A program made the translations under genes and the position numbers. Under the pieces are notes generated by a model. It worked only from the letters and a program-made list of their open reading frames with translations, was not told the DNA's origin and did no database searches. A stretch of DNA of 34,801 bases from Verrucomicrobiota bacterium. GTDB taxonomy: Bacteria; Verrucomicrobiota; Verrucomicrobiia; Chthoniobacterales; UBA10450. Location of the stretch: assembly GCA_003218305.1 (NCBI GenBank), contig QHMY01000044.1, positions 1 through 34,801 of the forward strand, in the 5' to 3' direction. This document shows, piece after piece, positions 14,891-31,427 of the stretch (the stretch's first letter is position 1; each line of letters begins with the position of its first letter).

Positions 14891-15745
14891 TCATGGCGCG
14901 GCGGTCCCAGGGGTCGCGCCGCCTTTTCGCGCGTGATGAAAGAGGTATTGCTGCGCATATCCGCCATGCTCTCCAAAGTAGGTCTCACAAAAGGCGCGGA
15001 GTTGAGTCGCGGTCACTTTTTGCTGGTTGGGAAAGTATTTTTGCCTCAAGACGCGCTCGATCCAGACATCGATTGGAAACGCGCGAAGCCGCTCGTAAGC
15101 AAAGAGCATCACACAATTAGCAACCTTTGCGCCCACCCCGGGCAGCTCGCAGAGGCGGGCCCTTAATGTCTCCTCGGAAAGAGTGCTCCACTGTTCGAGA
15201 TCGGCGTCGCCGGAGGCAACCAGGCGCGCGGTCGCCAGAAGGTTCTTTGCCCGGTAGCCGAGCGCGCAGGCCCTCAGGTCCGGTTCGGTGAGCTTCGCGA
15301 CCCGGGAGGGGGTGGGAAAGGAGGGCGCGGCGCACTCCTTGACGCGGTGGCGCTGGCCGTACCGAGTTCGCAACGCCCGGGAAATCTGACGAATGTGCGC
15401 AACCTGTTTCATCGAGGAGGTGATGAAGGTGGCCAGACATTCCCAGCGCGGTTGCCGGATGATGCGCAAGCCCTGGCAGAAATCGCGAGCCGCGGTCAGG
15501 GCTGGATCGTCCGGGAATGATCGGCAGATCTTCGCGAGCTGGTGATCGAGCGCAAAATAGCTCGTTATTGTTTCCGCGGTCACACCGCTGAAGCGGAGCC
15601 GTTTTCCCCGTTGTTCCACGAAGACGCCGCGGGGGCCGATCGCTCCTGCAAAACCGTCGCCGCATTTTTCCCAGTGGAAGACCTGGCCCGAGTCGAGCGT
15701 GCGCGAGAGATCGAAATCAGGCGCTTCCAACTCCATCCATCTCAT
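14891..15745 (-). CDS. ogg: 8-oxoguanine DNA glycosylase (Ogg1-type, HhH-GPD)
   Basis: A bifunctional glycosylase/AP lyase that removes 8-oxoguanine from DNA. The 284-residue protein has the OGG N-terminal domain (FDLSRTLDSGQVFHW, the mark of eukaryote-like Ogg1 proteins) and the helix-hairpin-helix core LCELPGVGAKVANCVMLF with the Schiff-base Lys at residue 207. The catalytic Asp lies in AFPIDVWIERV at residue 226. Starts at 15745 (MRWMELE) or 15736 (MELE) are both possible. The frame continues upstream into a palindromic repeat, which is not part of the protein. A DNA repair role separate from the MutM pathway is expected. Confidence 0.88.
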   Translation of the reverse strand: MRWMELEAPDFDLSRTLDSGQVFHWEKCGDGFAGAIGPRGVFVEQRGKRLRFSGVTAETITSYFALDHQLAKICRSFPDDPALTAARDFCQGLRIIRQPRWECLATFITSSMKQVAHIRQISRALRTRYGQRHRVKECAAPSFPTPSRVAKLTEPDLRACALGYRAKNLLATARLVASGDADLEQWSTLSEETLRARLCELPGVGAKVANCVMLFAYERLRAFPIDVWIERVLRQKYFPNQQKVTATQLRAFCETYFGEHGGYAQQYLFHHARKGGATPGTAAP

Positions 15746-15840
15746 TAGCCACAGATTAACACGGATAAACACGGATGGGGGAGGGGTCGCGTCAGCCTCG
15801 GGATGAAAATCCGTGTTTCATCCGTGTTCATCCGTGGCTA
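15746..15840. repeat. Inverted-repeat element, CCACAGATTAACACGGAT family
   Basis: A left arm of 31 bases (15746-15776, starting TAGCCACAGATTAACACGGA) faces a right arm at 15809-15840 ending CATCCGTGGCTA. Each arm holds internal iterations of ACACGGAT. It fills almost the entire 108 bp between the divergent ogg and symporter start codons and touches the ogg ATG. Any promoter for either gene must lie inside or across the element. Confidence 0.85.
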
Positions 15841-15853
15841 AATACCCCATCTC

Positions 15854-17482: not shown

Positions 17483-17506
17483 CCGGCCGGCATGCGACTC
17501 TAAGCG

Positions 17507-17627
17507 TGTCATCCCGAGTCGCGCAGACGACGAGGGACCTCGCAACTGCAATTGAACGGTCTCGGCTGGCTGAATGCGTTACTTGCAGTTGCGAGGTCCC
17601 TCGTCGTCTGCGCGACTCGGGATGACA
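17507..17627. repeat. Perfect large inverted repeat, TGTCATCCCGAG family
   Basis: Left arm 17507-17551 and right arm 17583-17627 are exact reverse complements over 45 bases, around a 31-base loop. It is the best preserved member of the family and lies between the convergent symporter and aspS genes. Its transcript would form a very stable hairpin from either strand. Confidence 0.93.
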
Positions 17628-17657
17628 TGCTTTGCGTTGCGCGCCCGGTCGGCGCGG

Positions 17658-20969: not shown

Positions 20970-21407
20970 ATGAAACAAAACAGATTGATTAAATTAATGG
21001 CAGCCGGAGCCGTCAGCGCAATCGCGCTCACCACAGCTTTCGCGCAAACTTCTACCACCACCAGCACGACCAAGACCGACCCGGTCACGAACTCGTCGAG
21101 CACGACGACCTCCACCGTCACGACGGACGGTTCGGGCACGATCACGTCCTACACGCCGGGCACGGACTATATTTCGTTCCGCACGGAGACGAGTAGCACG
21201 CCGGTGAAGTACTACTACACCAAGAGCACGACCATCGTCGATTCAGACGGAAAGACGGTTGAATGGTCCATGCTCAAGCCCGACATGCCGGTGAAATACA
21301 CCTACGTGAAGGACGGCGATCGCATGGTGGTCAGCAAGATCACGCTGCAGAAGCCGATCTCGACCTACGAGAAGACGACTACGACCACGACTACGACCAA
21401 GCCCTAA
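20970..21407 (+). CDS. Secreted Thr/Ser-rich protein of unknown function
   Basis: A 145-residue protein with a clear signal peptide: MKQNRLIKLM, then a hydrophobic run, likely cut after AFA at residue 25. The mature region starts with a Thr/Ser-rich stretch (about residues 26-60), has a central part with GTDYISFRTETSSTPVKYYY and DSDGKTVEWSMLKPDMPVKY, and ends in an eight-Thr run. AAAGGA lies upstream of the ATG. No family was recognised; the central part could be a small beta-fold domain. A strong terminator follows, so the gene appears to be a single transcription unit. Confidence 0.75.
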   Translation: MKQNRLIKLMAAGAVSAIALTTAFAQTSTTTSTTKTDPVTNSSSTTTSTVTTDGSGTITSYTPGTDYISFRTETSSTPVKYYYTKSTTIVDSDGKTVEWSMLKPDMPVKYTYVKDGDRMVVSKITLQKPISTYEKTTTTTTTTKP

Positions 21408-21418
21408 CGGGCAGTTGT

Positions 21419-21435
21419 AGTTTCGAATCGAAACT
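21419..21435. other. Short hairpin after the Thr-rich gene
   Basis: AGTTTCG (21419-21425) and CGAAACT (21429-21435) form a perfect seven-base stem with a three-base loop, just ahead of the main terminator. It may help stop transcription or protect the 3' end of the message. Confidence 0.45.
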
Positions 21436-21440
21436 GAGAG

Positions 21441-21481
21441 CGCCCGCGGAACGTGTTTCCGCGGGCGTTTCTTTTCTTCTT
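21441..21481 (+). terminator. Rho-independent terminator
   Basis: CGCCCGCGGAA (21441-21451) pairs perfectly with TTCCGCGGGCG (21457-21467) around a five-base loop and is followed by a pyrimidine run rich in T (21468-21481). This is the clearest intrinsic terminator in the window and serves the Thr-rich secreted protein gene. Confidence 0.9.
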
Positions 21482-21484
21482 CAA

Positions 21485-21536
21485 TGTGGGAGCCGCCTTT
21501 GTGCGGCGATTTCGGGACACAAAGGTCCCTCTCACA
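21485..21536. repeat. BIME-like element of two inverted REP units, TGTGGGAG family
   Basis: The 52 bp element starts TGTGGGAG and ends CTCTCACA. Inside are two hairpins: GCCGC-CTTTGT-GCGGC and, on the other strand, GGGAC-CTTTGT-GTCCC. Both hairpins share the loop CTTTGT and both units have a GGAG/GAGAG foot when read outward-in, the layout of paired REP units. It lies between the terminator and the end of galE. Confidence 0.75.
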
Positions 21537-21539
21537 TTT

Positions 21540-22511
21540 TCAATCACCGTAGCCGTTGGGAAATTTCTGGTGCCATTTCCAGGCGCTTTGGATGATCGCT
21601 TCGAGGTTTTGGAATTGCGGGCGCCAGCCCAGCTCTTTCTGAATTTTCTCCGAGGAGGCGATGAGGCGGGGCGGGTCGCCGGGCCGGCGAGGCTTTTCCA
21701 CGACGGGGATTTTATGGCCGGTCACCTTCCGGCAACAATCGATCACTTCGCGCACGCTCGAACCACCGCCGGTGCCCAGATTGTAGAATTCGCTCCTGGG
21801 CGACGCCATGGCCAGAATGTGCGCGCGCGCGAGGTCCAGAATGTGAATGTAATCGCGGATACAAGTACCGTCCGGCGTGTCGTAATCGGTGCCGAAGATT
21901 TCGACCTGGGGGTTTTGCCCCAGCGCGACTTTCAACACATTTGGGATCAGGTGGGTTTCGCAGCGATGTTCTTCGCCAAAATTCTCTGACGCGCCGGCAG
22001 CATTGAAATAGCGGAGCGCCACGAAACGCAAACCGTGAATCTCGCCGTACCAGCGCAGGATTTTCTCGAAGGCCAGTTTCGATTCGCCATACGGATTGAT
22101 CGGACGTTGCGGCAGCGTCTCGTCGATCGGAACTCGTTCGGGCGGGCCAAAAGTCGCGCAGGTCGAAGAAAAGACGAGCTGCTTTGGGCCGGTGGTGACC
22201 ATGGCGTCGAGCAGGTTCAAGCCGTGGCTGATATTGTTCCGAAAATATTTCGAAGGATTTTGCATCGACTCGCCCACCAGCGCGTTGGCGGCAAAGTGCA
22301 TGACCGCCTCGGGTTGGAACGCGGCGAGTGTCGCTTGGATACGATCGCGATCCGCCAGGTCGCCTTCCATGAACTGCGCGCGCGAATCAACCGCCCGCCG
22401 ATGGCCTTCCGACAGATTGTCGAATATGCCGACGGTGTGGCCCTCGTTGAGCAACAACTCGGCGCAAACGCTGCCGATGTAGCCTGCGCCGCCAACCACG
22501 AGAACTTTCAT
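21540..22511 (-). CDS. galE: UDP-glucose 4-epimerase
   Basis: GalE interconverts UDP-glucose and UDP-galactose with bound NAD, supplying sugars for LPS or exopolysaccharide. The 323-residue extended short-chain dehydrogenase has the NAD-binding GGAGYIGS (7-14), HFAANALVGESM, the catalytic Thr in SSTCATFG (T117), and Y141-G-E-S-K145. Later it has ALRYFNAAGA and DGTCIRDYIHILDLARAH, typical for GalE. The ATG at 22511 is followed by KVLVVGGAGYIGS. The frame stays open up to 23120 through the neighbouring lipoprotein gene in a different phase; that extension is coincidental. Confidence 0.93.
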   Translation of the reverse strand: MKVLVVGGAGYIGSVCAELLLNEGHTVGIFDNLSEGHRRAVDSRAQFMEGDLADRDRIQATLAAFQPEAVMHFAANALVGESMQNPSKYFRNNISHGLNLLDAMVTTGPKQLVFSSTCATFGPPERVPIDETLPQRPINPYGESKLAFEKILRWYGEIHGLRFVALRYFNAAGASENFGEEHRCETHLIPNVLKVALGQNPQVEIFGTDYDTPDGTCIRDYIHILDLARAHILAMASPRSEFYNLGTGGGSSVREVIDCCRKVTGHKIPVVEKPRRPGDPPRLIASSEKIQKELGWRPQFQNLEAIIQSAWKWHQKFPNGYGD

Positions 22512-22567
22512 CCGGGAAGTTGGGGCGTTCCCGCGGGGCCTGTCAAAACAAACCGCGCGGGGGGTCG

Positions 22568-23062
22568 TCAGCTCTTGTTGGCTTCGATCCCCGCGATCAT
22601 GCGTCGAACGAGCCCGTTCTTCTTGCGCGGCGCCAGAACCTTGAGGCTCTGTTGCTTCGAGCCCCATTCCAAAATATCGATGTCGACCCGGCGGACGCCC
22701 CATAAACGCATTGCCCGTCGGTTGCTCATGTAGAGATCGATCGTGTTGGTGCCGACCAGCGCGCCGCCATAATCGTCGATGATGTAGCGGTCTTGCGTGC
22801 CGACGATCTGGAACCGTGTCCCGAGCGGAAAACGTGACCAGTCGGCCGCCGCGCTCACGTGCCCCGCACCGGACAAGGTCTTTCCCAGCGCGTTGCGCCC
22901 GCCGCCTCTTTCCGTGTGTGTGTAAGCGGTTGTCCGGACGTTGGTAATGCGGCTTCCGTAAGCAGTGGGCTTTTGCTTGCTGGCTTGCGGGGTGGGGGTT
23001 TCGCAACTGGCGATCAGGCAGGCCAGCGCGCCGATACCGGCAAATTTGAGATAGGTCGACAT
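22568..23062 (-). CDS. Lipoprotein with a C-terminal 3D (double-psi beta-barrel) domain
   Basis: A 164-residue protein with a lipobox LIASC and the lipidated Cys at residue 20. After a short linker comes RTTAYTHTERGGG, then ADWSRFPLGTRFQIVG and YIIDDYGGALVGTNTIDLYM. These fit the 3D domain, named for three Asp residues (here D74, D97 and D109), which is found in MltA-type lytic transglycosylases and Rpf/YocH-like wall proteins. A role in peptidoglycan turnover at the outer membrane is likely, though no separate transglycosylase domain is present. It lies 56 bp upstream of galE on the same strand. Confidence 0.8.
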   Translation of the reverse strand: MSTYLKFAGIGALACLIASCETPTPQASKQKPTAYGSRITNVRTTAYTHTERGGGRNALGKTLSGAGHVSAAADWSRFPLGTRFQIVGTQDRYIIDDYGGALVGTNTIDLYMSNRRAMRLWGVRRVDIDILEWGSKQQSLKVLAPRKKNGLVRRMIAGIEANKS

Positions 23063-23136
23063 CAGCGCTGAAACCGGTCATTACCGATTGAAGGCAGGGG
23101 TGGCAAGCGATAATTTGCACGGCCCGCTGGCTTTAT

Positions 23137-23793: not shown

Positions 23794-23822
23794 GGCTTGA
23801 TCAATAAGACGAGTGGATACGC

Positions 23823-23912
23823 TGTCATCCCGAGCGTAGCGAAGCGAAGTCGAGGGACCCCGCCGCACCGCGAGACGCTCATCGGGGTCCCTCGACTTCG
23901 CTCGGGATGACA
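23823..23912. repeat. Large inverted repeat, TGTCATCCCGAG family
   Basis: A 90 bp element with a right arm of 30 bases (23883-23912) matching the left arm (from 23823), except for a ten-base insertion, TAGCGAAGCG, in the left arm that looks like a local duplication. It lies in the convergent gap between the phosphoesterase gene and mscL. Confidence 0.88.
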
Positions 23913-23920
23913 GCCTGGCT

Positions 23921-24392: not shown

Positions 24393-27077
24393 TCAATTGG
24401 CGACCACGTTCACAAGCTTTTTGGGCACAACGACAACCTTGCGAATGGTCTGCTCGCCCACGGCATTTTGAACCTTAGGGTTGGAGCGTGCGGCGGTTTC
24501 GAGAGCGGCGTCGGTGGCATCGAGAGCCACGGTGATCTTGTCGCGGAACTTGCCGTTTACCTGCAGGACGATTTCGATTTCGTCTTCGATCAGGAGCCGC
24601 TCATCGTGCTCGGGCCAGGGCTGGGCGGTAATCTGGTCGCTCCCGGCAGGAAACTTCCGGGCCAGGGTTTGCCAGAGCTCCGAAGTGAGGTGAGGCGCAA
24701 ACGGATTCAACAGGACCAGGAGGGTGCGCAGAGCGGACAGAGGTTTGGCCGGCGCGTTGGTCAGCGCGTTCACCATGATCATCATCTGGGAGATCGCGGT
24801 ATTGAAGGAGAGCGTTTCGATGTCGCCGGTAACTTTCTTGATCGTGGCGTGCAGGATTTTCACCTCAGATTTCTGCGGATCCACGTCCTGCACCTCATCC
24901 GAAAGCACCCATTCCCCCGCCTGATTTTCCTCCATGATCAGGCGCCAGACGCGGGCCAGGAATCGCGAAACGCCTTCGACCCCCTTCATGCTCCACGGTT
25001 TCATTTGCTCCAGTGGCCCCATGAACATCTCGTAACAACGAAACGCATCCGCGCCGTGGATTTCTATGACGTCGATCGGATCGATCACGTTGCCCCAGCG
25101 TTTCGACATTTTGCGGCTGTCCTCGCCCAGGATCATGCCCTGATTGACCAGGCGCTGGAATGGCTCGGGGGTCGAGAGGTGCCCGAGATCGAAGAGCACT
25201 TTGTGCCAAAACCGGGCGTAAAGAAGATGCAGCACCGCATGCTCAACCCCGCCGATGTAAAGATCGACGCCCCCCGGCTTCGCTGGGAATGACGAAGGTC
25301 GAATGTCGAATGACGAAGTCCCGGCTGGTTCGGGTTTCGTCATTCCTTCGACATTCGTCATTTGTCCTTCGTCATTGCGCCCGCCCATCCAATATTGCTC
25401 CGGCTCGCGGCCCACGAACCGTTGGTCGTTCCCCGGATCGCAGTAGCGGAGGTAGTACCAACACGAACCCGCCCATTGCGGCATGGTGTTCGTTTCGCGC
25501 GACGCGTTGTCCGAATAACGAATCCAATCTTTCGCTTTCGCCAGCGGCGGTTCGCCGGTTCCGGTCGGCTTGAAATCGTCGAGCGCCGGCGGCTCCAGGG
25601 GGAGTTCCGATTCCGGCAGCGCTTCGTGTTTGCCCTCACGCCAGATTATTGGAAACGGCTCTCCCCAATAACGCTGACGGGAAAAAAGCCAGTCGCGCAG
25701 CTTGTAACGAGTGTCCCGCCGTCCGTGCCCGTTTTGCTCAAGCCAATCGATGATCCTGGCCGTCGCCTCCACTCGCGAAAGTCCGTTAAGCAGCGGCGAA
25801 TTAATGGCGGTTCCGATCCCGGTGTAGCCGATCGATTCCTCTGCCGTCTTTTCCGGCGCCTGGATGACGGGAACAATTTGCAGGCCGAATTTCTTCGCGA
25901 ACTCGAGATCGCGTTCATCGTGCGCCGGAACGCCCATGATCGCGCCCGTGCCGTAGCCCATCAGGACGTAGTCGGCGATCCAGATTGGAATCCGTTCCTG
26001 GTTCACCGGATTCATCGCGAACGCGCCCGTGAACGCGCCGGTCTTCTCCCTGGCCAGGTCGGTGCGTTCGAGGTCGGATTTCGTGGCGATTTCGGCCCGA
26101 TAGGCTTTGATCGACTCCCGCTGCTCGTCGGTCGTGATCTGATCGACCAAGGGATTTTCCGGAGCGATGACCATGTAGGTCGCGCCGTAGAGCGTGTCGG
26201 GTCGCGTCGTGAAGACTGAGATGGTAGGGACGCCGGGCTGCGGCGTCCGGTCGTCGCAGCGCGACGACCCTACCACAGCGAATCGAATCTCTGCGCCTTC
26301 GCTGCGTCCGATCCAATTCCGCTGGAGCGCTTTGAGGGAGTCGGGCCAATCCAGATCTTCGAGCCCGTCGAGCAAACGATCCGCGAGCGCCGTGATGCGC
26401 AACATCCATTGGCGCATCGGCCGGCGGACCACCGGGAAACCGCCCACTTCACTCTTGCCGTCGATGACCTCTTCGTTCGCCAGGACGGTGCCGAGTTCCT
26501 GACACCAATTCACCGGGACTTCAGCTACATAAGCGAGCCGCACGCTGTCGGGGTCATCGCCGCGGTAGCTGGAAATGGGCTCCGCTTTTTTCGTCTCCGG
26601 GTTGAACCAGGAATGATAGATCTGAAGGAAAATCCACTGGGTCCATTTGTAGTAGGCGGGATCGGTCGTGTTGACTTCGCGTTCCCAATCGTAGGAGAAA
26701 CCGATTCGTTTCAGCTGCGTCTTGAACTTGGCCACGTTCTCCCGGGTGGTGACGGCAGGATGCTGCCCGGTCTTGATCGCATACTGCTCGGCGGGGAGGC
26801 CAAATGCGTCCCAACCCATCGGGTGCAGGACGTTGAAGCCGCGCAGGCGTTTGTAGCGCGCGACAATGTCGGTCGCGGTGTATCCCTCAGGGTGTCCGAC
26901 GTGCAGCCCCGCCCCGCTGGGGTAGGGAAACATATCGAGCGCGTAATATTTCGGCTTCGCCGGGTCGAAATTCTCCTCGCCGGGGTTCGGCGCATGGAAC
27001 GAACGGTTCTGGTCCCAGATCGCCTGCCACTTCGGCTCGATCTGGTCGAAAGGATAAGGTTTGCGGCGCTCGCTCAT
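24393..27077 (-). CDS. leuS: Leucine--tRNA ligase carrying two in-frame palindromic insertions
   Basis: A class I synthetase charging tRNA-Leu and editing mischarged products. The 894-residue protein has the HIGH-type H59-V-G-H62, the CP1 editing domain with [14 protein letters not shown] from about residue 291, [30 protein letters not shown], and KMSKR at 656-660. It is about 50 residues longer than typical. Residues 268-286 ([13 protein letters not shown] region) and about 568-597 (with [10 protein letters not shown]) are encoded by palindromic elements at 26222-26275 and 25288-25376. Removing the first leaves a normal-looking junction. The frame is intact, and the gene is almost certainly functional because no other leuS is visible here. 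Confidence 0.95.
25288..25376. repeat. Inverted-repeat element (AATGACGAA family) inside leuS
   Basis: The left arm begins AATGACGAAGG (25288) with repeated GAATG(T/A)CGAA words. The right arm (25335-25376) reads as the reverse complement, ending CCTTCGTCATT, and is about eleven bases longer. On the leuS strand it is read without stop codons and contributes a peptide containing [10 protein letters not shown] between QYWMGG and VDLYIGG of the synthetase core. Confidence 0.85.
26222..26275. repeat. 54 bp BIME-like pair of REP units inside leuS
   Basis: Two head-to-head 27 bp units. Each begins TGGTAG when read from its outer end and continues as a hairpin: GGACGCC-loop-GGCGTCC on the plus strand (7 bp stem) and GGTCGTCGC-GCT-GCGACGACC on the minus strand (9 bp stem). 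The outer ends TGGTAGGG and CCCTACCA also pair. Both units are multiples of three and free of stops in the leuS frame, so 18 codons are added exactly. Confidence 0.92.
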
Positions 27078-31340: not shown

Positions 31341-31427
31341 TCGTCCTCGTCCTCGTCCGTCGTTCTCGTCCTCGATTCCCTCTTTTCCGGAACGAGGACG
31401 AGGGACGGCGACGAGGACGAGGACGAG
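31341..31427. repeat. Inverted-repeat element, CGTCCTCGTC family
   Basis: The left arm (31341-31380) is built of CGTCCT/CGTTCT words; the right arm (about 31387-31427) is its approximate reverse complement with CGAGGACGAG words. The loop is short and contains CTTTTCC. It lies between the phosphodiester glycosidase-like gene and the FAH gene. It also generates a false Arg-rich N-terminal extension of the FAH frame. Confidence 0.82.

Follow-up and report, generated by a model that had tools for sequence, protein, structure and literature searches.

What is the paired-hairpin element lying against the end of a galE-like gene in this Verrucomicrobiota genome, how does it relate to an element of similar plan within leuS, and what kind of enzyme could account for both? 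We addressed these questions in a window of 34,801 nucleotides, the whole stretch of DNA that was analysed (contig QHMY01000044.1), and by comparison with related genomes. The argument turns on the following features:

20970..21407, + strand: small open reading frame of 145 aa with no Pfam match, the left convergent neighbour, conserved in 8/8 relatives compared
21440..21478, + strand: terminator-like hairpin with a T-rich tract, belonging to the convergent small gene, from direct reading, kept in relatives
21483..21538, no strand: whole REPIN, heads out, 2-nt spacer (direct reading; R1 model; fold)
21483..21509, + strand: REP unit a, with AATGTGGGAG head, GTGG foot, 5-bp stem GCCGC/GCGGC, loop CTTTGT and tail CGA (R1 46.4 bits; fold)
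21512..21538, - strand: REP unit b, inverted, with AATGTGAGAG head, foot GTGA, stem GGGAC/GTCCC, loop CTTTGT and tail CGA (R1 44.7 bits; fold)
21540..23120, - strand: galE-like open reading frame (Pfam Epimerase), the right convergent neighbour; its real start is probably inside, and galE is a name inferred from the Pfam match
26224..26250, + strand: leuS REP unit a, GTAG foot, 8-bp stem (R2 44.8 bits; R2 was built with this unit)
26247..26273, - strand: leuS REP unit b, inverted (R2 48.7 bits; R2 was built with this unit)

Direct reading of the window places the galE element at 21483-21538. The earlier note had described a 52-bp two-hairpin element at 21485-21536; the element is real, but those bounds fall two bases short at each end. 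It is 56 nt long and consists of two REP units of ~27 nt, inverted with their heads outward across a 2-nt spacer (AATGTGGGAGCCGCCTTTGTGCGGCGA-TT-TCGGGACACAAAGGTCCCTCTCACATT). The foot, given in that note as GGAG/GAGAG, had been read from two bases too far in: unit a starts with AATGTGGGAG and unit b with AATGTGAGAG, which makes the foot GTGG, canonical for the GT[AG]G class, and the GTGA of unit b is one change away. The two hairpins do share the loop CTTTGT, which lies on opposite strands (ACAAAG on the + strand) because the units are inverted, and their stems differ by compensated changes, both as first described. Folding of the 56-nt strand gives -13.8 kcal/mol (z -4.2), a value matched by 0/200 shuffles. 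The supposed identity of plan with the leuS element holds in that both are inverted paired units, but the whole galE strand favours a single long imperfect hairpin, whereas the leuS element folds as two hairpins. The galE copy is extragenic, one base from the galE-like stop codon and just past the terminator-like hairpin. At gathering thresholds, Rfam has no match in the window. A hand-written degenerate pattern with as many as 3 mismatches allowed likewise had no hit there; this pattern was unfit for the real unit, and the R1 covariance model was used instead. Five more inverted repeats occur in the window (17489-17645, 23821-23914, 15745-15841, 25288-25376 and 31341-31426), several of them between convergent genes, and one type among them, TCATCCCGAG..., recurs in orthologous gaps of G003, G004 and G007.

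The galE element has many relatives in its own genome. A DNA search with the element found 11 further matches there, and R1, built from 17 own-genome units (12 distinct) with the unit consensus AATGTGGGAG-NNNCCTTTGYGNNN-CGA, found 70 at E<=1 and 68 at E<=0.01, 14 of these 68 at the top score. Given 68 genome units, the galE element is not a chance structure. Within 200 bp, 52 of the 68 units are paired and 16 unpaired; all 26 neighbouring pairs are oriented head-out, and their spacers measure 1-117 nt (median 22). Across the 17 aligned units, chosen with no pairing requirement (alignment A1), AATGTGGGAG is invariant but for one base, unit b has the foot GTGA, and the loop is nearly constant. 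The stems have 98.3% of cells paired, with 3/5 pairs varying on both sides, and 0/500 shuffles matched the covariation score. Among 51 own-genome units with flanks, C comes after the tail in 84%, with T (49%) or A (29%) next, while the bases outside the head of the same 51 units show no conservation and no strong T-rich or terminator signal; we therefore do not claim terminator targeting as a rule for R1. The family is confined in its spread, matching in 31/58 genomes searched: 31/37 of the same bacterial family (Verrucomicrobiota, Chthoniobacterales; own genome included) and 0/21 from the order's other families.

A second REPIN family, this one with the foot GTAG, is represented by the leuS element (26224-26273), in which GTAGGG..GGCTG or CGCTG..CCGG occurs two times in inverted order. 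Searching with it gave 44 matches in its own genome and matches in 6/9 genomes searched. Its copies likewise show stem covariation with foot and loop constant (alignment A3), a signal biased upward in that A3 rows were required to have at least 6 of 8 paired positions. The leuS REPIN lies within the open leuS frame, and near-identical copies of the element stand at matching distance from galE in G004 (95%) and G005 (98%).

Y1/RAYT genes are common in these bacteria, with four in the own genome carrying Pfam PF01797 and matches in 21/21 relatives searched. One clade of them keeps company with R1. A profile of five R1-linked RAYT proteins (A2) matches strongly (>250 bits) in 6/37 family genomes (G002, G004, G007, G016, G021 and G028), and in 6/6 of these R1 units adjoin the clade gene; four more named loci with R1 beside the RAYT (L195, L196, L197 and L199) bring this to 10/10 distinct loci. 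At L192, L193, L195, L196 and L197 a single REP faces outward on either side of the RAYT gene, as in a REPIN whose spacer is the gene. A tree of 130 distinct Y1/RAYT cores groups the R1-linked RAYTs in one clade of nine rows with support 100/99, the tenth having been cut short and so left out. The tree has few columns and its deep forks are unsure, and only this nine-member clade is relied on. An R1 unit of at least 30 bits accompanies 9/9 clade rows vs 1/121 other cores, with weaker matches (20-30 bits) at L149, L200 and L201; this clade-count comparison was made separately from a label-change test on the tree, in which 118 rows had no label and 500/500 shuffles were as low. Genomes that have the clade RAYT carry more R1 units (median 20.5, n=6) than genomes that lack it (median 3, n=31; p 0.0026 in a one-sided Mann-Whitney test); relatedness among the genomes inflates the counts. 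As to what these proteins are, L066 (83.8 bits) and L159 (96.6 bits) exceed the cut-off of 80 for the NCBIfam REP-associated transposase NF047646, the HUH motif PDHWH is invariant in 5/5 RAYT sequences, and A2 matches the TnpArep structure 4er8 (E 6.1e-9). Among named records, the linked gene occurs in those of Spartobacteria, Chthoniobacterales and other Verrucomicrobia MAGs, Candidatus Udaeobacter among them.

R2 keeps different company. Across 117 Y1/RAYT loci (93 + 24) and L302-L313, with L102-L107 and L191-L218 left out, R2 matched 2/117: the G005 RAYT, with R2 pairs on both sides, and an own-genome IS200-like gene, with one R2 unit 430 bp upstream. The G005 RAYT falls outside the R1-linked clade in the tree, and a G009 gene 62% identical to it is also flanked by R2 units. 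At L305 (G004:C35) R2 units still flank a broken R2-type RAYT.

The two cognate enzymes were not found in the own assembly, which is 88.7% complete, either by the A2 profile search for the clade RAYT or by a search with the G005 protein for that of R2; incompleteness may be the cause of both absences. In G003, which is 97% complete, the A2 search found no clade RAYT, and 26 R1 units are present. Several other RAYT arrangements came to light. A RAYT of another clade in the own genome (L132:1442-2092; G000:C25) has a single R1 unit ~110 bp downstream. At L066, L085 and L086 an MFS transporter gene has a RAYT-REP unit at its end, so that REP bases encode its last residues (NVGGASVPRPT); in the own genome and in G003 the MFS gene is present and that unit is not. 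Y1/RAYT domains also occur within very long open frames of ~700-1500 aa (for example G006:C25:57360-57662 and G003:C15:6543-6809), and these may be RAYTs fused to other domains.

The pairing of repeat with enzyme extends well beyond R1 and R2. Searched mechanically to 330 bp from the RAYT core, 71/130 loci have repeated foot-hairpins, vs 8/400 random placements. Between nearest RAYTs (neighbours below 85% identity, 67 pairs with reciprocal pairs counted twice), REP units agree at 15.8 of 20 positions vs 9.1 when shuffled (maximum 10.6 in 1000). REP likeness tracks RAYT likeness, and several RAYTs with one repeat type each is an arrangement that holds widely in these genomes. The earlier note had proposed two families of one geometry, a mechanism acting on structure and a separate enzyme for each family, and had looked to stem covariation with constant foot and loop among genome copies, and to several RAYT genes, for confirmation. 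The covariation is present, foot-hairpins accompany many RAYTs, GTGG units stand beside one RAYT clade at all ten loci and GTAG units accompany another RAYT, present in G005, in G009 and, as a broken gene, in G004. That proposal is supported, with both cognate RAYTs absent from the own assembly and movement driven by RAYTs being the likely process by analogy.

We are highly confident that the galE element is a REPIN, a non-autonomous inverted REP pair that a RAYT would mobilise, and that the leuS element is its parallel in a separate RAYT system. The role of RAYTs as movers is carried over from published work on other species, where RAYT processing of single-stranded REPs is described in the available portions of one account (PMC8266576). 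When the strand is single, as in lagging-strand DNA, a RAYT would recognise the foot and stem-loop, cut beside the hairpin at a CT- or CA-type dinucleotide, and move or copy the REPIN. In the same portions of that account, the E. coli and Stenotrophomonas enzymes cut CT, the Marinomonas enzyme cuts CT or CA, and in Marinomonas the foot helps to choose the cut (PMC8266576); the C then T or A after the R1 tail would fit such cutting. A second RAYT system, parallel but separate, with its own loop and the foot GTAG, would have produced the leuS element. The two elements would share their geometry because their enzymes belong to one superfamily, and the families would differ in sequence because the enzyme clades are separate.

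The galE element itself is of a known kind, and the less expected part is the recurrent use of its site. The gap between the galE stop and the terminator was compared in 36 family genomes, in which the terminator motif is kept in 30, lacking in 5 and cut by a contig end in 1. By eye, 23/30 slots hold an inverted-repeat or foot-hairpin element, some of them decayed; four (G008, G017, G026 and G014) have at most 13 nt between the stop and the A-run, and three (G015, G016 and G021) have no clear element. In G008, G017 and G026 the stop codon leads directly into the terminator A-run, leaving the slot cleanly empty, and these could be deletions rather than sites that were never filled. The R1 model finds its family at the slot in G000, G019 and weakly G029, and the R2 model in G004, G009 and weakly G006. 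Other slot elements resemble RAYT flanks, against background medians of 14-16: that of G003 at 24 of 25 positions (flank L138 of G003 itself), that of G005 at 25 of 27 (flank L092 of G005 itself) and that of G007 at 26 of 27 (flank L162 of G006), with weak matches in G001 and G002 (18 and 20 of 24). The slot is filled by at least five RAYT-linked families across relatives. Automatic counts give an inverted pair in 7/30 slots vs 0/2000 random stretches and a foot-hairpin in 15/30 vs 66/2000, a contrast that is partly one of intergenic against coding DNA, since the random windows include coding DNA. Among orthologous gaps near galE in nine genomes, a mechanical REPIN detector was positive in 4/8 galE slots vs 3/214 other slot-by-genome cells; it is conservative, having missed the galE-slot elements of the own genome, G004 and G005 that are plain by eye. 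Sister species hold different REPIN families in this gap (window 21408-21540; orthologues in L249-L258 and L275-L299). On balance we favour the view that these few bases are a shared landing slot that received independent insertions from at least five unrelated RAYT-REPIN families, possibly at least ten, through either a target preference common to RAYTs of different foot types or host selection for a mobile stem-loop.

The slot also bears on whether selection retains the element for its function as a 3' structure, such as an mRNA stabiliser, a transcription barrier or a gyrase-type site, with mobility incidental or past. Its position between convergent genes and beside a terminator suits such a role, as do the 23/30 slots filled, by eye, with different sequences of similar shape, and roles for REPs in mRNA stabilisation and termination are proposed in the available portions of a survey of GTAG repeats (PMC3733652). 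Yet the slot is clean-empty in G008, G017 and G026, and a functional structure leaves the tie of each repeat family to one RAYT clade unexplained, so that we consider this reading unlikely, if worth keeping in mind. We rejected, as very improbable, that the element is the MITE of a conventional DDE transposon, bounded by terminal inverted repeats and duplicating its target: the outer ends are indeed inverted repeats (AATGTGGGAG / CTCTCACATT), but each unit folds on itself with a covarying stem and constant loop, the spacers vary, and the family has Y1 transposase genes for neighbours. A chance hairpin, or an intrinsic terminator present as a single copy, is suggested by a hairpin at a gene end; this reading was likewise rejected and has next to no probability, given the 68 dispersed units, the separate conserved terminator-like hairpin with T-rich tract that adjoins the element, and the GAAGAAGAAAAG that follows it on the galE strand with no T-run.

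As a REPIN, the element takes its place among well-described systems, as far as the available portions of the literature show (PMC3116915, PMC3733652, PMC6006769, PMC8266576). Going by the accessible text on Pseudomonas fluorescens SBW25 (PMC3116915), its REPINs resemble ours in having inverted REP doublets as the main form, many dispersed copies, and several REP groups per genome with a RAYT to each; they differ in phylum and sequence, in the cognate RAYT that our own assembly lacks, and in inter-REP spacings of 71 and 110 bp, compared with the shorter R1 median of 22 nt. The TnpAREP/REPtron systems of E. coli, Stenotrophomonas and Marinomonas, in what is available of their descriptions (PMC8266576, PMC6006769), likewise have tnpAREP flanked by cognate REPs, a GT[AG]G foot and a Y1 transposase homologous by sequence. 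R1, with its perfect 5-bp stem and 6-nt loop, comes nearest in layout to the Marinomonas 5-bp REP of those descriptions, and the many RAYT clades across our genomes set them apart from these systems. Verrucomicrobial GT[AG]G repeats are already reported in Opitutus: the accessible part of the GTAG-repeat account of prokaryotes (PMC3733652) includes Opitutus terrae GTAG-20 with GTGG, which we liken to our elements by description (verrucomicrobial palindromes with GTAG/GTGG ends) and not by sequence, and that part does not name the R1 family. Our literature search, by title and abstract and mostly without subscription papers, met no description of the R1 family or of such a slot (a REPIN with convergent genes, an insertion site or a terminator; Spartobacteria).

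These genomes bear on two open questions: the choice of sites by REPINs and the upkeep of several RAYT systems within one genome. Many RAYT-REPIN pairs, distinct in sequence, are available in this family of soil bacteria, together with one orthologous site that is empty or differently filled from genome to genome. Target choice and host selection are therefore testable here, through the comparison of strains and with small RAYT proteins on short DNA.
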